A DNA stretch of 64,000 nt from Methylomonas aurea (GTDB lineage Bacteria > Pseudomonadota > Gammaproteobacteria > Methylococcales > Methylomonadaceae), in NCBI RefSeq assembly GCF_024505045.1, contig NZ_JANIBM010000002.1, forward strand, positions 248,001 to 312,000. The letters are read 5' to 3'. The position numbers and the translations under genes are program-made. This document shows, piece by piece, positions 14,560 to 22,713 of the stretch. A model generated the notes under the pieces. That model did no database searches. It saw only the letters and a program-made list of their open reading frames with translations, and was not told the DNA's origin. The number at the start of each line of letters is the position of its first letter. The first letter of the stretch is position 1.

Positions 14560-15102
14560 ATGAACAGATCGAACCTTTGCCGATACGGATTGGCCGTCGC
14601 TATCGGCCTGCTGAGCGAAACCGCTTTTGCCGCCAAATACAATTTGGAACCGGGCGATGCGGTGCTGACCAATTGCCGCGACATTTACACCAAAGGCGAA
14701 ATCAAGGCCAAAGTCGACGACGGCTACACCGTGCATTTTCCGAAGAACAGCGGACCTATCCATTGCCCGCCGTTTCGCTGGCATGCGGAATTTGTATTGC
14801 CGTTCCAGTCGGTACCGGAGTACCGGCTGCAATTTCTGGGCGGGTTGAAACGCGATATCGTGTTCAAGGTCGGTGAGCCGGTGACGTTTCGGGTGGAAAC
14901 CGACAAGCGCGTCGTCAAAAACAGGAATTCGATCGATATCGACGCCCAAATCACCGATATCAGCGGCAACGGCGCGATTGCGGTCAAATTGCTCAGTACC
15001 GACCCGGAAGCGGCCGCGACCTTTTGGCAATGGATAGGCGGCAATTACGTCGACTTACGCCACAAATACCTGGAACCGGAGCGGGACAAGCGCTCGCGCT
15101 AA
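14560..15102 (+). CDS. secreted protein of unknown function
   Basis: A 180-residue protein with a signal peptide (about 1-24, cleavage near AFA-AKY). The mature part has two Cys (NCRD and HCPP) that may form a disulfide. I recognise no domain. Start ATG 14560 follows AGGAG. It is the last of four same-strand genes (from 11523) that together place products in the cytosol, inner membrane, outer membrane and periplasm. Its stop overlaps the stop of the convergent PfkB gene. Confidence 0.65.
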   Translation: MNRSNLCRYGLAVAIGLLSETAFAAKYNLEPGDAVLTNCRDIYTKGEIKAKVDDGYTVHFPKNSGPIHCPPFRWHAEFVLPFQSVPEYRLQFLGGLKRDIVFKVGEPVTFRVETDKRVVKNRNSIDIDAQITDISGNGAIAVKLLSTDPEAAATFWQWIGGNYVDLRHKYLEPERDKRSR

Positions 15103-16013
15103 GGCATCGGTTCGCTTTGCCACCGTTGCAACAGCGCGCGGTGGGCTGCCTTATCGGGTAAGCCGGGGCGGGCGCCCAAGCGGGTGCAACATAACGCGCC
15201 GGCGGCACTGGCATAACGCAGCAACTCGGGCCAGGCCAGACCGGCCGCCAAACCGGCGGCGAAGGCGCCGTGAAACGCGTCTCCGGCTCCGGTGGTATCG
15301 ATCGCCGTGACTGGCGGCGCGTTCAAGCGGCCCGTTTCCTGGCCTGTACGCCAAACCAAGCCGCGTTCGCCCAGCGTGATTACTACCCATGGCGCGATTG
15401 CGGCCAATGCCGACAGCGCCGCGTCAACGCCTCCGGAATGCTGAAGCGCAAATTTTTCCGAACACACCAAGTAGTCCATTTTGTCCAGCAAGGCTTCGGT
15501 GCCGGAGTGTAACGATCCGGCATCCAGAACGGTCGGAATCTTTGCCGCGGCGCGGCGTTCCAGCAAACGCGCTGAAATATGCGGCTCGTGGCCGTCGCAC
15601 AATACCACTCTGGGCCGAACCGCGCCGAAGTCCAAGCTGTCTGCCGGCAGCGCCCGCGTGTCGCCTTTGTAGTTGATCAACGCGCGCTTGCCGTCGGGCT
15701 TGACCAGTACCGCCGACAACGGCGTCGGCGATTCGCCGCGGACGATGCAGCGGGTATCGATCCCAAAGCGATGCAATTCGCTTAAATGGCTGTCGCCGTA
15801 GACGTCGTTGCCCAAATAGCCGCTGAATCCGGCGCGGTAGCCCAGTTTCGCCACGGTAACCGCGGCGTTTGCCGCCGGGCCGCCGCCGCAGCCGAGCAAA
15901 GCGTCGGCCACGGTTTTTTCGTCGGCTGCGGGATGGTGCGGCACGCTGAACACCAAGTCGTAGCTGGCATGGCCGACGCAGAGTACATCCAAATGAATCG
16001 CTGTGTTTTCCAT
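15099..16013 (-). CDS. PfkB-family sugar or nucleoside kinase
   Basis: A 304-residue ribokinase-fold kinase that would phosphorylate a small alcohol-bearing substrate with ATP. The N-terminal GCGGGPAANAAV (about 41-52) and the C-terminal DTTGAGDAFHGAFAAG are the two PfkB signatures; Asp 245 is the predicted catalytic base. The substrate cannot be read from sequence. It lies 21 bases downstream of the ATP-grasp ligase gene on the same strand, so the two are probably co-transcribed and the kinase may act on a substrate or product of that pathway. Confidence 0.85.
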   Translation of the reverse strand: MENTAIHLDVLCVGHASYDLVFSVPHHPAADEKTVADALLGCGGGPAANAAVTVAKLGYRAGFSGYLGNDVYGDSHLSELHRFGIDTRCIVRGESPTPLSAVLVKPDGKRALINYKGDTRALPADSLDFGAVRPRVVLCDGHEPHISARLLERRAAAKIPTVLDAGSLHSGTEALLDKMDYLVCSEKFALQHSGGVDAALSALAAIAPWVVITLGERGLVWRTGQETGRLNAPPVTAIDTTGAGDAFHGAFAAGLAAGLAWPELLRYASAAGALCCTRLGARPGLPDKAAHRALLQRWQSEPMP

Positions 16014-16034
16014 ATTGAATTTTGGTTATCGATG

Positions 16035-17510
16035 TCAATCCAGGCCTTTGCTGCGGTTCTCCATGCGCCGCAACAATTCGCCGATGATGGCTCGGTACAA
16101 TTCTTCGCCCAAATATTTGTCTTCGACGCCGCTGTCGATGCTGGGGTTGTCGTTGACTTCGATCACGTAGCCCTTGCCGTTGATTTCCTTGACGTCGACG
16201 CCGTACAGGCCGTTGCCGATCGGCTGGGTGGCTTTCAATGCCGCGTCCAGCACCGGCTTCGGTACTTCGAAGGTCGGCAGCGTGGCGAAATTGCCGCTGT
16301 CGGTGCGATTGGCGCCGTGGCGGTAAATCTGCCAATGGTTTTTCACCATGAAATAGCGACAGGCATACAGGGCTTTATGGTTGAAGATGCCGATCCGCCA
16401 ATCGAAATCGGTGTAGAGAAACTCCTGTGCCAGCAATAAAGCCGATTGTTCGAACAATTCGGCGACCTTGGTTTCCAGTTCGGCCCGGTTATTGACTTTG
16501 ACGATGCCGCGCGAAAAAGAGCCGTCCGGGACTTTGATGACGACCGGAAAGCCGGCAATGGCTTCCAGCTTGTCCAGGTGTTCGGTGTTGCCTTTATGCA
16601 GAATCCAGGTTTTCGGCGACGGCACTTTATGGGTACGGAATAGATCGGCCAGATACACCTTGTTGGCGCAGCGCAGAATCGAGGTCGGATCGTCGATCAC
16701 CACCAAGCCCTCCGCTTCGGCCTTTTTTGCGAAACGGTAGGTATGGTGGTCGATCGCCGTGGTTTCGCGGATGAACAGGCCATCGAACTCGGGCAGGCGG
16801 CCGTAATGATTCTGGGTGATCAATTCCACATCGACGCCCATTTGCCGGCCCACCGCAATGAACTTCTTTAGCGCGCCGCGGTTGCTGGGCGGCAGGGCCT
16901 CCGCCGGATTGATCAAGATCGCCAGATCGAAACGCGCATTCTTGCGGGCCCGGCTTTTGCGCCAGACTTTCTTGCTGAAGCGGTCCAGAGCCTCGGCAAA
17001 CAGGGTTTGCATGGCGTCGTCCAGTTGTCCGGGCGAAACCGCTTTCAGATCGGTGATTTGCCACTGCTGCTCCAAGCGCAACGTGATTTCCAGAATCGGG
17101 CAGGCGAAACGTTCGAACAGCAAGCGGGCCAGTTCCTGAAACGCCGGTTCCGGCGTCGTGCCGAAATAACTGTACAGCCGGTATTCGCCGTCCTTGTGCT
17201 GGTGTTTGAAGGCGCGGGCCAACGGCTGGTTCAAATCTTCCAACTGCAGCCGATACAGCGCATTTTTGCCCAGGTCGTTGATGATCTTCACCGAAGGAAT
17301 CACGTGGTGGCTACGGGCTTCCGCCAGCAGCGAACAGTAGTAACCGTCGGACAGATAGCTGTAACTGCTGCACAGATTGATGACCCGCACCCGCTGGTCG
17401 GGGTCGGTCTGTTCCATGGCGAGGTAGGTTTCGAAACTGACGACTTGCTCGCTGGGGTAATAAGGGTTCCAGTCGGAAAGATTGTCGACGACCAGCAGCG
17501 TACTTGCCAT
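16035..17510 (-). CDS. RimK-like ATP-grasp ligase with RLAN N-terminal domain
   Basis: A 491-residue protein. About residues 1-200 resemble the RLAN region found before RimK-like ATP-grasp domains. Residues about 270-485 are the ATP-grasp fold, with the nucleotide-binding FPVVIKVPDGSFSRGIVKV and the Mg-binding end VIEVNDNPS (Glu and Asn ligands). RimK relatives join carboxylates to amines, for example adding glutamate to a protein C-terminus or building short peptides; the substrate here is unknown. ATG 17510 is preferred to TTG 17519. Divergent from the DUF2817 and GNAT-C39 genes, which published comparative work on ATP-grasp amidoligases associates with such ligases. Confidence 0.85.
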   Translation of the reverse strand: MASTLLVVDNLSDWNPYYPSEQVVSFETYLAMEQTDPDQRVRVINLCSSYSYLSDGYYCSLLAEARSHHVIPSVKIINDLGKNALYRLQLEDLNQPLARAFKHQHKDGEYRLYSYFGTTPEPAFQELARLLFERFACPILEITLRLEQQWQITDLKAVSPGQLDDAMQTLFAEALDRFSKKVWRKSRARKNARFDLAILINPAEALPPSNRGALKKFIAVGRQMGVDVELITQNHYGRLPEFDGLFIRETTAIDHHTYRFAKKAEAEGLVVIDDPTSILRCANKVYLADLFRTHKVPSPKTWILHKGNTEHLDKLEAIAGFPVVIKVPDGSFSRGIVKVNNRAELETKVAELFEQSALLLAQEFLYTDFDWRIGIFNHKALYACRYFMVKNHWQIYRHGANRTDSGNFATLPTFEVPKPVLDAALKATQPIGNGLYGVDVKEINGKGYVIEVNDNPSIDSGVEDKYLGEELYRAIIGELLRRMENRSKGLD

Positions 17511-17617
17511 GTTGCTCAAACTCGGTGGGTTGGGGAGGCTGAATTTTGAAACCAGACAGGTTTTTAAACAAGGAGTAATATTTCTTCATTTACCCGATCG
17601 AGGCTGCTTGCTGCGAA

Positions 17618-18709
17618 ATGCCCTATTCCTACGCCGATATCGATGCCAGCGTTTTTCCCGCCAACTACGCCGAAGCCAGGCAACAGTGGTTGCAACGCGT
17701 GGCGGCACTCGATTGCCCGATGCAATTGCAAGCGTTTCCGTGTTCCGGCTTTGGGCCGGACGGCGAGGCGCTGGTAACCGATAGCGTCTGGTTGGGCGAT
17801 GCCGATGCCGCCAACCTCGTGGTGGTACTGGGTGCCACTCACGGTATCGAAGGTTTCGTCGGTAGTGCCGGCCAAATCGATTTGCTCGAATCGTTGCGGG
17901 CCGGTCGGGTAGTCATGCCGCAGACAAGCGCGGTTTTATTGGTACACGCATTGACGCCCTGGGGTTACGCTTGGTTGCGGCGTTGCGACCGGGACGGCGT
18001 GGATTTGAATCGGAACGCGCTGGACTTTTCGGCGCCGTTGCCGGAAAACCCTGATTACAACCGGCTTCGAGAAGCCATATTTCAACCAGATGCCGAGCAA
18101 CGCCGTCAGGCCTTCGCCGAATACGAGGCCCAACATGGCCGAGTGGCGTTGGAGCAGGGCATCAGCGGCGGTCAATACGCCGATCCGGAAGGCCCGTTCT
18201 ACGGCGGCCGAGCTCCGGCACATGGCCACCTGGTGTGCGAAGCGTTGATCAATAAATATGCCCTGCAGCAGCGGCGGTTGGCGGTCATCGATCTGCACAG
18301 CGGATTGGGGCCCTACGGTTACGGCGAAATCATTTGCGACCACGCGCCGGACAGTCCCGGTGCGGCAGTGGCCAAGCGCTGGTATGGCGATTCGGTGACC
18401 TTGCCGCTGGCCGGCACCTCGAGTTCGGTGCCGAAGCTGGGCCTGTTGGATTATCTGTGGCACGCGGCGATGACACCGGAGAGCTGCTATGTCACTTTGG
18501 AGTTCGGCACCTTCAGCACCGACCGTTTGTTCGAAACCCTGCTGCGCGACCACCTGATCTGGGCCCAGGGCGGGAACAGCACCGAACGGCAGGCGCACGC
18601 CCAAATCATGCTGGCGCATTTTTGCCCGGCGGCAACGGCCTGGAGAGAAATGGTGTTGTTCCGCATCCGTCAAGTGATAGGTCAGGCTTTGCAGGGAGTA
18701 TCGGTTTGA
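17618..18709 (+). CDS. DUF2817 zinc carboxypeptidase-like protein
   Basis: A 363-residue protein of the DUF2817 family, related to M14 metallocarboxypeptidases and deacylases. The expected catalytic residues are visible: zinc ligands His 75 and Glu 78 (THGIEG) and His 227 (DLHSG), the LNRN motif near 130, and the general base Glu 295 (TLEFGTF). It has no signal peptide, so it should act in the cytosol. Probable role: cleaving a C-terminal residue or an amide from a peptide or conjugate. Together with the divergent ATP-grasp ligase this suggests a make/break pair; that link is inference. Confidence 0.85.
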   Translation: MPYSYADIDASVFPANYAEARQQWLQRVAALDCPMQLQAFPCSGFGPDGEALVTDSVWLGDADAANLVVVLGATHGIEGFVGSAGQIDLLESLRAGRVVMPQTSAVLLVHALTPWGYAWLRRCDRDGVDLNRNALDFSAPLPENPDYNRLREAIFQPDAEQRRQAFAEYEAQHGRVALEQGISGGQYADPEGPFYGGRAPAHGHLVCEALINKYALQQRRLAVIDLHSGLGPYGYGEIICDHAPDSPGAAVAKRWYGDSVTLPLAGTSSSVPKLGLLDYLWHAAMTPESCYVTLEFGTFSTDRLFETLLRDHLIWAQGGNSTERQAHAQIMLAHFCPAATAWREMVLFRIRQVIGQALQGVSV

Positions 18710-19806
18710 ACATCCTATTGCGGCCGGCGCAAAACTCCGATTTGGCGGCCTTGGTTGCACTGGAAAACGCCAGTTTCAATACCGATAAATTGAGCCGGCG
18801 CAGCTTCAAGCACTGGTTGGTCAGCGATCACCGGGCATTGTTGCTGGCCGAATTCGAGGGTCGGGTGGCCGGCTATATCCTGATCATTTACCATCCAGGT
18901 ACCCGGTTGGCGCGGATTTATTCGTTGGCGGTCGCGCCGCAGTTGCGCGGTAACGGCATTGCCAAGGCATTGATGCAGGCCGGCGAGCAAGCGGCCGAAG
19001 CCGACGGCCGCCTTTATTTACGGCTGGAAGTCAGCGTCGATAATTTACCGGCAATCGGACTTTACGAAACCTTGGGATACAAAAAATTCGGCCTGTACCG
19101 CGACTATTACCAGGATCACAAAGACGCCTTGCGCTACCAAAAGCGCATTCGCCGTTACCACGACCAGCCGCAGCAGCGGCCGGTACACTGGCTTCGGCAA
19201 ACCACGCCGTTTACTTGCGGACCGGCCTCGCTGATGATGGCGTTGCACGCGTTGAACAAGCAGTATTTGCCGTCGCGGGAAGAGGAAATCGAAATCTGGC
19301 GCGAAGCGACGACGATCTTCATGACCTCCGGCCACGGCGGCTGCCATCCGCTGGGTTTGGCGTTGGCCGCAAAACGCCGGCAATTCGCCGTCGAGGTTTG
19401 GATTAACCAAAGCGGCCCGTTGTTTATCGACAGCGTGCGCAGCGAGGATAAGAAACAGGTCGTCGAATTGGTCGACAACCGTTTCAAACAACTGGCGGCC
19501 GAGCAGGGGGTCGCCGTGGTTTACGCCAATATCACCCAGAACGATTTGACCGCCGCCTTCGAGGCCGGAGCGATTCCGTTGATTTTGATCAGCACCTTCG
19601 CGATGGATCGTAAGAAAACCCCGCATTGGGTGGTCATGAGCGGTTTCGATAAAGACTGCCTGTACATGCACGATCCCGACCCGGAAGAAGGTCGGCAAAG
19701 CGAGCTGGACTGCCAATTCATTCCGGTCGCGCGCGAGGATTTCGACCGGATGTGCTGTTTCGGCAAGAGCCGTTTGCGCACGGCGGTAATTGTCAAAGCC
19801 CGCTGA
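18706..19806 (+). CDS. GNAT acetyltransferase fused to C39-like cysteine peptidase
   Basis: A 366-residue two-domain protein. Residues 1-150 are a RimI-like GNAT domain (acetyl-CoA loop VAPQLRGNGIAKALM). Residues about 155-365 are a C39-like papain-fold domain with an apparently complete active site: Gln 165, Cys 171 (QTTPFTCGPAS), His 307 (PHWVVMSGFD) and Asp 323 (MHDPD). It starts with TTG 18706, which overlaps the DUF2817 stop and has GCAGGGAG upstream, so it is translationally coupled to that gene. C39 domains usually cleave after double-glycine leaders; here the substrate is unknown and a cytosolic role is likely. Confidence 0.87.
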   Translation: MNILLRPAQNSDLAALVALENASFNTDKLSRRSFKHWLVSDHRALLLAEFEGRVAGYILIIYHPGTRLARIYSLAVAPQLRGNGIAKALMQAGEQAAEADGRLYLRLEVSVDNLPAIGLYETLGYKKFGLYRDYYQDHKDALRYQKRIRRYHDQPQQRPVHWLRQTTPFTCGPASLMMALHALNKQYLPSREEEIEIWREATTIFMTSGHGGCHPLGLALAAKRRQFAVEVWINQSGPLFIDSVRSEDKKQVVELVDNRFKQLAAEQGVAVVYANITQNDLTAAFEAGAIPLILISTFAMDRKKTPHWVVMSGFDKDCLYMHDPDPEEGRQSELDCQFIPVAREDFDRMCCFGKSRLRTAVIVKAR

Positions 19807-19905
19807 AAGGCGTTGATTTGCGAGGCAAGCGATTTGCAGCGCATTCTCTTCCGGCGCGGCAAAGGCTAAAATAGCCGATTTTCAGCTAGTGGAGCCGACA
19901 CCGAA

Positions 19906-20070
19906 ATGAATCCCTCCGATCGAGACGAACAGAAAAAAGTGAAGAACATTGCCGCCATTGTTTATCTGTTGGTGCTAGGGTTTCTGGTCGGCGGTTCCTA
20001 TCTGCAACAGCAACGCACGGAAACGGCGGACGCTAGTCCGGAACTTGCGGCGAAACCTCAGCCGCAATAA
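19906..20070 (+). CDS. small single-pass membrane protein
   Basis: A 54-residue ORF. A charged N-terminus (about 13 residues) is followed by one hydrophobic helix at about 15-32 (IAAIVYLLVLGFLVGGSYL) and a short polar, Pro/Ala-rich tail. GGAG lies upstream with an 11-base spacing. A weak -10-like TAAAAT lies at 19867-19872. I recognise no family. It could be the tail of the peptide-ligase locus or an independent small membrane protein. Confidence 0.5.
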   Translation: MNPSDRDEQKKVKNIAAIVYLLVLGFLVGGSYLQQQRTETADASPELAAKPQPQ

Positions 20071-20131
20071 ACCCTGAATCCCGGATATTGCCCGGCGAAT
20101 TGACATCGCCAGGCAACAACAGTAACTTAGC

Positions 20132-20151
20132 CGGCTTTCTCAAAAAAGCCG
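20132..20151. other. hairpin upstream of alaC
   Basis: CGGCTTT and AAAGCCG arms (7 bp) around a six-base loop, 30 bases before the alaC start. There is no T-run, so it is not a standard terminator. A perfect TTGACA at 20100-20105 lies upstream, but its -10 (TAACTT at 20123) is poor. Confidence 0.4.
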
Positions 20152-20181
20152 TTCGCAAAATCTGACCAACAAGAGCCGTTA

Positions 20182-21366
20182 ATGGAAGAATTTCACCGCA
20201 TCAGCCGTCTGCCGCCTTACGTATTCAACATCGTCAACGAACTGAAAGCCAAAGCGCGCGCCGCGGGCGACGACATCATCGACTTCGGCATGGGCAATCC
20301 CGACCAACCGACGCCGAAGCACATCCTGGACAAGATGGTGGAGGTGGCGCAACGCGGAGACACCCACCGTTACTCGGTCTCGAAGGGCATTCCGCGCTTA
20401 CGCAAGGCCATTTGCGGCTGGTACAAAAAGCGTTTCGACGTCGATCTGGACCACAACAGCGAAGCCATCGTCACGATCGGCTCGAAAGAAGGTTTGTCGC
20501 ATCTGGCCTTGGCAACCCTGGGGCCCGGCGACGTGGTATTGGTGCCGAATCCGGCCTATCCGATCCATCCCTACGGTGTGGTGATCGCCGGTGCCGACAT
20601 TCGTCACGTGCCGCTGACCCCCGGTGTCGATTTCTTCGCCGAATTGCAAAAAGGCATCGACGAGTGCTGGCCGAAGCCGAAGATGCTGATTCTGAATTTT
20701 CCGGGCAACCCGACCTGCCAATGCGTGGAATTGGACTTTTTCGAAAAAGTCGTCGCGATCTGTAAGGAACACAATATCTGGATCGTACACGACATCGCCT
20801 ATGCCGATATCGTGTTCGACGGCTATGTCGCGCCGTCGATCCTGCAGGTGCCGGGTGCGAAGGATATTGCCGTCGAGTTTTTCACCTTGTCCAAAAGCTA
20901 CAACATGCCGGGCTGGCGAATCGGTTTCATGTGCGGCAATCCGACCCTGGTCGCGGCATTGACCCGGATCAAGTCGTATATGGATTACGGCGCATTCACG
21001 CCGATTCAGGTCGCGGCGATCACCGCGCTGGAAGGCCCGCAGGATTGCGTGCAGGAAATCTGCGACATGTACAAATCCCGCCGTGACGTGCTGTGCGACG
21101 GCCTGAATGCGATGGGCTGGCAGGTCGACAAACCAAAAGCAACCATGTTCGTCTGGGCCAAGATCCCGGAAGCTTACCGCGAGATGGGCTCGATCGAATT
21201 TGCCAAAAAGCTGATCATCGACGCCAAGGTCGCGGTATCGCCAGGCGTCGGCTTCGGCCAATTCGGCGACGACCACATCCGTTTCAGCCTGATCGAAAAC
21301 GAGCAACGCACCCGCCAGGCGTTGCGCAGCATCCGCAATATGCTGAAAAAAGACAACGTTGTATAA
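20182..21366 (+). CDS. alaC: alanine transaminase AlaC
   Basis: A 394-residue class I/II PLP aminotransferase that interconverts pyruvate and alanine with glutamate. The PLP lysine is Lys 238 ([14 protein letters not shown]), and the [10 protein letters not shown] and NFPGNPTC motifs are typical of AlaC. Older databases often call this an aspartate aminotransferase-like protein. It directly precedes hom and thrC, an order seen in many Gammaproteobacteria. Its stop codon lies within a TATAAT box that could serve as an internal promoter for hom. Confidence 0.92.
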
Positions 21367-21367
21367 T
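21362..21367 (+). promoter_or_regulatory. possible -10 box for hom-thrC
   Basis: A perfect TATAAT spans the alaC stop and is followed by the GC-rich CGCCCGCC. No clear -35 box is visible 17 bases upstream, so an internal promoter is only possible. Confidence 0.3.
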
Positions 21368-21402
21368 CGCCCGCCGTTTTGGGTAAACAAAAGGAGTCGG
21401 AT

Positions 21403-22713
21403 TTGAAGCCGGTTAGAGTTGGAGTATTGGGGCTGGGCACCGTCGGCGGCGGTACCGTCAACGTGTTGAAACGCAATGCCGAAGAAATCGCCCGCCGCGC
21501 CGGCCGCGAAATCGTCGTGACGCGGGCGTCGGCGCGCGACTTGAATCGTGCCCGCATCTGCGACACCCAGGGCATTGCCTTGACGGACGATCCGTTCGAA
21601 ATCGTCAACGACCCGGATATCGACATCGTCGTCGAGTTGATCGGCGGCTACGACCTGGCGAAACAACTGGTTTTGACCGCGATCGCCAACGGCAAACACG
21701 TCGTCACTGCTAACAAGGCGCTGATCGCGTTGCACGGCAACGAGGTGTTCGCCGAAGCCAGCAAAAAAGGCGTGATGGTGTTGTTCGAAGCGGCCGTGGC
21801 CGGCGGTATCCCGATCATCAAAGCCATCCGCGAAGGCTTGGCCGGCAACCGGATAAAATGGCTGGCGGGCATCATCAACGGCACCGGCAACTTCATCCTC
21901 ACCGAAATGCGCGACAAAGGCCGCGATTTCGACGACGTATTGAGAGAGGCGCAAGCCCTGGGTTACGCCGAAGCCGACCCGACTTTCGACGTCGAAGGCA
22001 TCGACGCCGGCCACAAGCTAACGATTCTGGCCTCGATTGCGTTCGGCATTCCGCTGCAATTCGACAAAGTCTTCACCGAAGGCATTACCAAGATCACCCG
22101 GCTCGACGTGGAATATGCCGAGGCGCTGGGCTACCGGATCAAAAACCTGGGTATCGCCCGCAAAACCGACGACGGCATCGAGTTGCGCGTGCATCCGACC
22201 CTGATTCCGAAGCGGCGCCTGATCGCCAATGTCGACGGCGTCATGAACGCCGTGCTGGTTTGTGGCGATGCGGTCGGCCCGACTTTGTATTACGGTGCCG
22301 GCGCCGGCGCAGAACCGACCGCCTCGGCAGTCGTCGCCGACCTGGTCGACGTAGTCAGAGCGATGACCAGCGACCCGGAAAACCGGGTGCCGCATCTGGC
22401 ATTTCAAGCGGACGCGATCGCAGACATTCCGGTGTTGCCGGCCGACGCGATCAAAACCGCCTACTACCTGCGGTTGACCGCCGAGGATAAACCCGGCGTT
22501 CTGGCCGACGTCAGCCGCATTCTGGCGGCGCACAACATCAGCATCGAAGCCCTGATACAAAAGGAGCCGCCCGCAGGCGAAACTTCGGTCCCGATCATCA
22601 TGCTGACCCAACAGACTCTGGAACAAGAAATGAACGCGGCGATCGCCGACATCGAAGCCCTGGCCACCGTCAGCGGCAAAGTCGCGCGCATTCGCCTGGA
22701 AACCTTAGGATAA
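21403..22713 (+). CDS. hom: homoserine dehydrogenase
   Basis: A 436-residue monofunctional enzyme that reduces aspartate semialdehyde to homoserine, the branch to threonine and methionine. The NAD(P)-binding GLGTVGGGTV (10-19), the catalytic homoserine-dehydrogenase domain and a C-terminal ACT domain (about 345-436, DKPGVLADVSRILAAHNISIE), which usually mediates threonine inhibition, are all present. It starts with TTG 21403, six bases after AAGGAG; an upstream TTG at 21379 would place the Shine-Dalgarno inside the gene. Four bases separate it from thrC. Confidence 0.95.
   Translation: MKPVRVGVLGLGTVGGGTVNVLKRNAEEIARRAGREIVVTRASARDLNRARICDTQGIALTDDPFEIVNDPDIDIVVELIGGYDLAKQLVLTAIANGKHVVTANKALIALHGNEVFAEASKKGVMVLFEAAVAGGIPIIKAIREGLAGNRIKWLAGIINGTGNFILTEMRDKGRDFDDVLREAQALGYAEADPTFDVEGIDAGHKLTILASIAFGIPLQFDKVFTEGITKITRLDVEYAEALGYRIKNLGIARKTDDGIELRVHPTLIPKRRLIANVDGVMNAVLVCGDAVGPTLYYGAGAGAEPTASAVVADLVDVVRAMTSDPENRVPHLAFQADAIADIPVLPADAIKTAYYLRLTAEDKPGVLADVSRILAAHNISIEALIQKEPPAGETSVPIIMLTQQTLEQEMNAAIADIEALATVSGKVARIRLETLG

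Follow-up and report, generated by a model that had tools for sequence, protein, structure and literature searches.

The analysed window, a 64,000-nucleotide stretch of the Methylomonas aurea genome, carries four open reading frames between positions 15099 and 19806, and ORF and Pfam checks recovered all four at the coordinates given in an initial annotation of this DNA. On the reverse strand lie a PfkB/ribokinase-type kinase gene (15099-16013; Pfam) and a gene for an RLAN-RimK ATP-grasp ligase (16035-17510; ORF, Pfam and alignment). On the forward strand, a gene for a 363-residue DUF2817 protein with the fold of M14 zinc carboxypeptidases (17618-18709; Pfam, alignment and structure comparison) is followed by one for a GNAT domain of the N-alpha-acetyltransferase type fused to a C39-like cysteine peptidase domain, DUF3335 (18706-19806; Pfam and alignment). 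With the ligase starting at ATG 17510, the divergent gap between the ligase and DUF2817 genes measures 107 bases (17511-17617), as annotated, and a simple scan of positions 17400-17720 returned no match to a sigma-70-type promoter or terminator.

A Pfam search with the ligase matched an RLAN domain at about 16989-17432 (PF14401; 8.8e-52, 175.2 bits, cut-off 25) and a RimK-like ATP-grasp domain at about 16131-16664 (PF08443; 1.6e-07, 31.6 bits, cut-off 21), both on the reverse strand. The RLAN domain is N-terminal to the ATP-grasp domain, the arrangement that marks membership of the RLAN-RimK / GNAT-DUF3335 systems. The protein is 491 residues long from ATG 17510, which matches the start position in most aligned relatives, or 494 from an alternative TTG at 17519; the RLAN domain takes up residues 1-190, and the fold matches span residues 193-494. 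We observed that K329, E366, R375, D442, E454 and N456, whose likely catalytic roles we assume from the parent family, are invariant in 22/22 aligned relatives. The enzyme thus belongs with the ATP-grasp ligases typified by RimK, LysX and ArgX.

Compared with RimK itself, the glutamate ligase of ribosomal protein S6 that is grouped with RimB/RimA, the ligase shares the RimK-type pre-ATP-grasp and ATP-grasp domains and three of the seven reported glutamate-contact residues, but carries the extra RLAN domain. The RimK glutamate contacts R64, R189 and N262 align with the invariant R251, R375 and N456 of the ligase, whereas the glutamate-chain contacts S7, R8 and S68 are replaced (N, P, and A or N in a six-sequence alignment) and S14 faces a proline at a point where the alignment is uncertain; because of these replacements, glutamate as the donor is a guess. 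The ligase falls below the curated RimK cut-offs (TIGR00768, 67.0 vs 143.4 bits; NF007764, 34.6 vs 331 bits), and the same genome encodes a separate true RimK that scores 468.8 bits against the cut-off of 331. It likewise departs from LysX/ArgX, the ligases of amino-group carrier proteins, with a LysX score of 73.8 vs 275.6 bits.

The DUF2817 protein matched its Pfam family at 3e-87 and has the M14 carboxypeptidase fold. H75, E78, N131-R132, H227 and E295 are invariant in 18/18 aligned relatives; we take H75 and E78 (HxxE) together with H227 to be the zinc ligands, N131-R132 to bind a carboxylate and E295 to be catalytic. Foldseek alone gave query TM-scores of 0.30-0.49. Its matches include aspartoacylase/desuccinylase-type relatives and a cyanophycin dipeptide hydrolase, and both carboxypeptidase and deacylase kinds of M14 protein appear among them. 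A DUF2817 protein of the aspartoacylase/desuccinylase type would be expected to cut an acyl-amide rather than a C-terminal residue.

The GNAT-C39 gene most likely starts at TTG 18706, overlapping the DUF2817 stop by four bases (TTGA, 18706-18709). This overlap recurs in 33 of 40 loci, suggesting translational coupling from DUF2817 to GNAT-C39. The GNAT domain (PF00583; 1.3e-19, 71.0 bits, cut-off 20.7) is nearest to N-alpha-acetyltransferases, and DUF3335 (PF11814; 7e-89, 297.2 bits, cut-off 25) covers about 19183-19797 of the forward strand. In the C39-like domain, Q164, C170, H306 and D322 are invariant in 17/17 aligned relatives, so that a Gln/Cys/His/Asp site is present, with residue roles that we carry over from the parent family. 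The kinase retains GAGD, presumably its active-site motif, and as a description of the locus the initial annotation was confirmed.

Iyer et al. in 2009 reportedly predicted neighbourhoods that join RLAN / RimK-like ATP-grasp proteins to GNAT-papain-like peptidases, and the ligase and GNAT-C39 core matches this kind, sharing the RLAN-RimK ligase and the GNAT-DUF3335 fusion. The locus differs in that an M14-fold DUF2817 gene is coupled to the GNAT-C39 gene. This coupling appears to be new as far as the literature searched shows, in which DUF2817 turned up in one unrelated paper and DUF3335 in one paper. According to excerpts of a 2023 paper (PMC10318531), which cites the work of Iyer et al., fusion to a GNAT domain is frequent among DUF3335 proteins.

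We followed the neighbourhood across genomes. RLAN is present in 81 of the 397 Pseudomonadota genomes drawn; a system of this kind, uncharacterised, intracellular and peptide-modifying, would on that count be common. Among the same 397 genomes, 62 of the 63 that bear DUF3335 also bear RLAN, at most 10 kb away in 60 (related genomes being treated as independent), which contradicts the idea that the neighbourhood is not conserved. The linkage of ligase, DUF2817 and GNAT-C39 genes is far beyond chance. Where RLAN genomes lack DUF3335, a free GNAT gene lies near RLAN in 18/19 loci, so we regard the ligase and the acetyltransferase as the core; a GNAT within 3.5 kb is absent in 10 of 101 well-covered loci. 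DUF2817 is optional, with no full-length copy in 55 of the 81 RLAN genomes and a copy at most 3.5 kb from RLAN in 41/80 and 4/56 loci. Overall, ligase, DUF2817 and GNAT-C39 make up a conserved, uncharacterised cassette, and the kinase is simply its neighbour. The cassette is absent from 10 of 37 members of the genus, some of whose genomes are incomplete, and its small size together with this absence should make deletion and comparison easy. Separately, a crude clustering of neighbouring ORFs (at least 110 residues, 77 loci) listed mostly shadow ORFs and Microbulbifer-only synteny; it missed a DUF155 gene that was later spotted by eye, and may have missed other partners.

The initial annotation had proposed a system that makes and removes amide bonds, and a RimK/LysX/ArgX-type ligase tied to a GNAT, a cysteine peptidase domain and an M14-fold protein supports this idea. 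Our preferred reading, which we put just short of an even chance, is an intracellular writer-eraser cycle in which the products of the three genes, working in the cytoplasm, form amide bonds on a peptide or protein and break them again. The ligase would spend ATP to attach an amino acid through its amino group to a C-terminal carboxylate; this amino acid would most likely be acidic, glutamate or another, and the RLAN domain presumably selects the acceptor. The GNAT domain would acylate an alpha-amino end, the DUF2817 protein, as an M14-type zinc carboxypeptidase, would take off the added C-terminal residue, and the C39-like domain would cut the acylated peptide or its parent; we infer that all of them act on one molecule and in these directions. 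The coupling of DUF2817 suggests a testable job for an unnamed family, that of eraser of the ligase product. ATP-grasp ligases are paired with proteases in writer-eraser cycles such as tubulin TTLL/CCP and RimK/RimB, and the cassette would operate in the manner of these pairs. The cassette differs from the tubulin cycle in being bacterial and in having an additional GNAT and cysteine peptidase, and we claim no membership of it.

The same enzyme classes occur in the mammalian N-acetylaspartylglutamate cycle (the GNAT NAT8L, the RimK-like RIMKLA and the M14 aspartoacylase) and in the bacterial system for N-acetylglutaminylglutamine amide (NAGGN). It is possible, if doubtful, that the cassette runs a small-molecule cycle of this sort, in which an N-acyl amino acid produced by the GNAT is joined to a second amino acid by the ligase, and the two hydrolases degrade the resulting N-acyl dipeptide, an osmolyte or store. 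Small-molecule substrates are also known for RimK-type ligases, and the MptN and CofF models score on our ligase in profile searches; the aspartoacylase-type and cyanophycin dipeptide hydrolase matches of DUF2817 point the same way. The GNAT domain matches the NAGGN synthetase model weakly (2.5e-07), which says little because such weak matches occurred in 14/14 control genomes. However, the affinity of the GNAT domain for N-alpha-acetyltransferases argues against a small-molecule cycle, and to our knowledge a cysteine peptidase has no role in the N-acetylaspartylglutamate or NAGGN cycles. The NAGGN synthetase TIGR03103 is partnered by an amidotransferase and an M42 peptidase; the cassette likewise combines a GNAT, an ATP-grasp ligase and a peptidase, but its ligase is of another subfamily, and the best TIGR03103 score in the genome was 37.3 against 569 bits. 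We therefore rejected membership of the NAGGN system.

An RMND1-family (DUF155) gene was found in 7 of 140 loci; in L190, L192 and L224 it runs in the same direction as a cassette gene that lies 24, 39 and about 51 bases away, respectively. DUF155 is present in 15/40 RLAN genomes vs 1/40 without RLAN (p 6e-05), a sample that was partly chosen with this knowledge, as it included five genomes already known to carry DUF155, and in which related genomes count as independent; with the five genomes set aside, the counts were 10/35 vs 1/40 (p 0.0016). The literature search found no paper combining DUF155 and ATP-grasp, and the link appears to be new as far as that search reaches. An unlikely alternative is a translation-linked modification, with DUF155 and in some genera beside RimB-RimK, of a ribosomal or membrane-associated translation protein. 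The ligase and GNAT resemble RimK and RimI, and RimK lies near the cassette in four loci, alone in L107 and with an ORF that we call RimB-like from a remembered motif in L108, L109 and L228. RLAN and RimK genomes also overlap above chance (64/81, p 9e-12, with related genomes treated as independent). Excerpts of PMC7564844 report that RMND1 supports mitochondrial translation. Against this stands the DUF155 copy of M. aurea itself, which sits on another contig, and DUF155 was adjacent in none of the scanned loci labelled methanotroph; it is also absent from 25/40 RLAN genomes and present in 4/8 RLAN-less members of the genus. RimK is absent from 17 of the 81 RLAN genomes, and a comparison by eye, covering the RimK matches listed for the 81, found none at a distance of 10 kb or less from RLAN, so neither RimK nor RimB-RimK is supported as a general partner. 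More speculative still, and improbable in our estimate, is one bacterial pathway in which RMND1-type membrane proteins would hold the ligase, acetyltransferase and peptidases at the membrane, where these enzymes would tag a translation-associated protein and take the tag off again; in that case, the part that human RMND1 plays in mitochondrial translation would have its origin in a bacterial system for modifying peptides. The linkage offers this disease-related mitochondrial family a testable bacterial gene context.

ATP-grasp ligases, peptidases and acetyltransferases also co-occur in RiPP clusters, and the combination seen here recalls a graspetide-like cluster for a secreted peptide natural product with a small precursor. 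We consider this very improbable: no recurrent exporter or further partner appeared among the clusters listed in the crude clustering of 77 loci, the cassette proteins showed no signal peptide by eye, and comparison of small ORFs (20-110 residues, 14901-20300) revealed no conserved precursor peptide following the cassette, in agreement with the annotation. The only clearly conserved small ORF (19906-20070, forward strand; 54 residues, one hydrophobic stretch by eye) was rejected as a precursor, as it is also found in Methylomonas without RLAN (G001, G003, G004, G019, G021, G022). It goes with the aminotransferase gene next to it, which it precedes in six loci without a cassette beside them (L232, L233, L234, L235, L238, L035), the count covering loci without an adjacent cassette where both were found.

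That all four genes are neighbours by chance is scarcely credible for ligase, DUF2817 and GNAT-C39, which are linked across many families, but holds for the kinase. The four-gene set of the annotation, and its conservation across genomes, accordingly stood for these three genes and not for the kinase, which adjoins RLAN in part of one genus. The kinase matched PfkB at 2.7e-44 and reached no curated single-function model (ribokinase TIGR02152, 129.8 vs 299.65 bits); its best solved relative is a sulfofructose kinase (1.5e-35). An orthologue is kept in 18/30 relatives without RLAN, and we rejected it as a cassette member. We defined the cassette-less site by the right flank (20182-22713), which comprises an aminotransferase gene (20182-21366) and a homoserine dehydrogenase-like gene (21379-22713), both on the forward strand and named by reading the sequence. 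In two of the 18 RLAN-less genomes, the kinase directly faces the genes that in M. aurea come after the cassette.

In the Methylomonas aurea genome, where the window lies at G000:C2:248001-312000, the four ORFs of the initial annotation were present as described. By Pfam matches these are a PfkB kinase (15099-16013, minus strand), an ATP-grasp ligase with RLAN and RimK domains (16035-17510, minus strand), a DUF2817 protein (17618-18709, plus strand) and a GNAT-C39 fusion of GNAT and DUF3335 (18706-19806, plus strand). The DUF2817 protein has an M14 fold. The ligase, up to 91% identical to its Methylomonas relatives, starts at ATG 17510, a start shared with most aligned relatives, and the divergent gap therefore stands at the 107 bases originally reported. 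A TTG at 18706, in frame for GNAT-C39, overlaps the DUF2817 stop as TTGA. Such a 4-base overlap of an in-frame GNAT start with the DUF2817 stop recurred in 33 of 40 loci with both genes (two of the 40, L033 and L225, are one contig); five further loci overlapped by 1 to 8 bases, and the remaining two, L192 and L194, had a different gene order. The GNAT start codon varied (ATG, GTG or TTG) and the overlap stayed constant, as expected for coupling, suggesting that DUF2817 and GNAT are translationally coupled.

The neighbourhood proved to be conserved, both within the genus and more widely. Among 37 genus members (G000-G036), RLAN and full-length DUF2817 occurred in exactly the same 27, and DUF3335 in these 27 plus a fragment in G029; the three cassette genes are thus co-present. 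Judged from coordinates, the cassette was compact in 20 of the 27, and DUF2817 and GNAT-C39 were still together in six of the seven others (G005, G008, G015, G017, G027 and G034), G032 alone having them apart. The ligase of G016 is split across two contigs. We also observed ∼7.6 kb of other DNA between DUF2817 and RLAN in G017 (L245:6362-13961), at a locus that is otherwise syntenic.

Across 397 Pseudomonadota genomes, we found RLAN in 81, DUF3335 in 63 and full-length DUF2817 in 55 (97 at E 0.001 if short weak matches are included); the respective counts in 14 well-known control genomes were zero, one and zero. RLAN was found in 62 of the 63 DUF3335 genomes (Fisher p 3e-54, kinship ignored) and lay less than 10 kb from DUF3335 in 60, the exceptions being G066, G068 and G229. 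Orientation in those 60 varied: DUF3335 came first in the same direction in 28, the genes were divergent in 22, RLAN came first in seven and three were convergent. The association of RLAN with DUF2817 was weaker (26 of 55 DUF2817 genomes; p 1e-06, kinship ignored). DUF3335 was missing from 19 of the 81 RLAN genomes, and a free GNAT lay within 3.5 kb of RLAN in 18 of 19 loci of this set, all except L188; in one genome (L205) GNAT is fused N-terminally to RLAN-RimK. When both sets were pooled, 101 loci extended 3.5 kb or more to either side of RLAN, and 10 of them lacked a GNAT within that distance. From the linkage and free-GNAT counts, the core is therefore RLAN-RimK and GNAT; GNAT is frequently fused to the C39 domain, and DUF2817 is accessory. 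Three DUF3335 genes (L219:3136-4260, L219:12186-13394 and L189:6114-6818) had no RLAN in the stretch covered and no GNAT by profile, Pfam having been run on two of them. G118, G122 and G199, which belong to the same genus, each have two RLAN genes.

The kinase, previously counted as a fourth member, is only a neighbour of the cassette. At E up to 1e-40, an orthologue was present in 48 of 61 relatives, 30 of 31 with RLAN versus 18 of 30 without. By coordinates, 17 of the 31 have it next to RLAN, every one in the window's genus. In the cassette-less G001 and G003, PfkB and the right-flank genes (small ORF, aminotransferase and homoserine dehydrogenase-like) face each other directly, and thus the cassette was either discretely inserted or cleanly lost there. 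In three RLAN-less genus members (G004, G019 and G021), PfkB is located elsewhere.

A DUF155 gene (PF02582, RMND1 family) was first spotted by eye in the gene lists of the loci, and a profile search of 140 loci placed it in seven, which come from several lineages (L190, L221, L103, L104, L215, L224 and L192). It follows RLAN and GNAT-C39 after ∼51 bases in L224, GNAT-C39 and DUF2817 after 39 bases in L192, and GNAT-C39 and RLAN after 24 bases in L190, where DUF2817 comes next on the opposite strand. We compared 40 of the 81 RLAN genomes, hand-picked to thin repeated families, with 40 RLAN-less genomes, taken in order from the top of a 61-genome random draw. DUF155 occurred in 15 versus one (p 6e-05), and in 10 of 35 versus one of 40 once five carriers known beforehand were removed (p 0.0016), both without kinship correction; controls had none (0/14). 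Six of the 15 carriers (G066, G069, G073, G096, G278 and G354, three being of one family) have it within ∼3 kb of a cassette gene. Within the window's genus, 16 of 17 RLAN-bearing and four of eight RLAN-less members carry DUF155. Elsewhere in the order it was present in three of 16 members, including one with RLAN; the window genome's copy is on a different contig from the cassette. Human RMND1, a mitochondrial translation disease gene, is described in PMC7564844 as part of an inner-membrane complex supporting mitochondrial translation; data on what precisely it does are described there as limited.

We tentatively favor a cytoplasmic writer-eraser cycle that would act on a peptide or protein end. 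The main rival, a small N-acyl dipeptide cycle, seems rather unlikely; the cassette enzymes are compatible with either, and the substrate is what separates the two. We liken the cassette to tubulin TTLL/CCP and to N-acetylaspartylglutamate metabolism, as a likeness and not as membership. PMC10318531, citing Iyer et al. 2009, notes that DUF3335 proteins commonly carry a fused GNAT domain, which might be a peptide ligase or acetylate, and PMC4431377 links ATP-grasp ligases of another clade (R2K) to GNAT, which perhaps adds an acyl cap. Among the papers searched, DUF2817 occurred in one unrelated paper, and none had DUF155 and ATP-grasp together. Because of these papers and negative searches, we rated the locus as varying on a kind of system that has been predicted but is uncharacterised, its core being already known as a prediction; the coupling of an M14-fold protein and the association with DUF155 seem to be new, if not certainly so. 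RLAN was reportedly introduced by Iyer et al. in 2009.

We sought a conserved precursor peptide near the cluster, as initially proposed, and found none tied to the cassette. The only clearly conserved small ORF (19906-20070) was rejected, as it goes with the right flank; it encodes a conserved 54-aa protein 5' of the aminotransferase in Methylomonas, whether the cassette is present or absent. With crude ORF calling, no other neighbor recurred across genera among the matches listed. RimK or RimB-RimK as a general partner was likewise not supported, since the matches listed held no RimK less than 10 kb from RLAN in the 81 RLAN genomes and 17 of the 81 lack RimK. At individual loci, canonical RimK behind a RimB-like ORF adjoins the cassette in L109 (5306-6663) and twice in L108 (2986-6276, with a DUF3335 fragment between the copies), and lies ∼3 kb off in L228 (11465-12921); RimK adjoins the cassette in L107 (1-675), and in L071 and L074 its distance is ∼4 kb.
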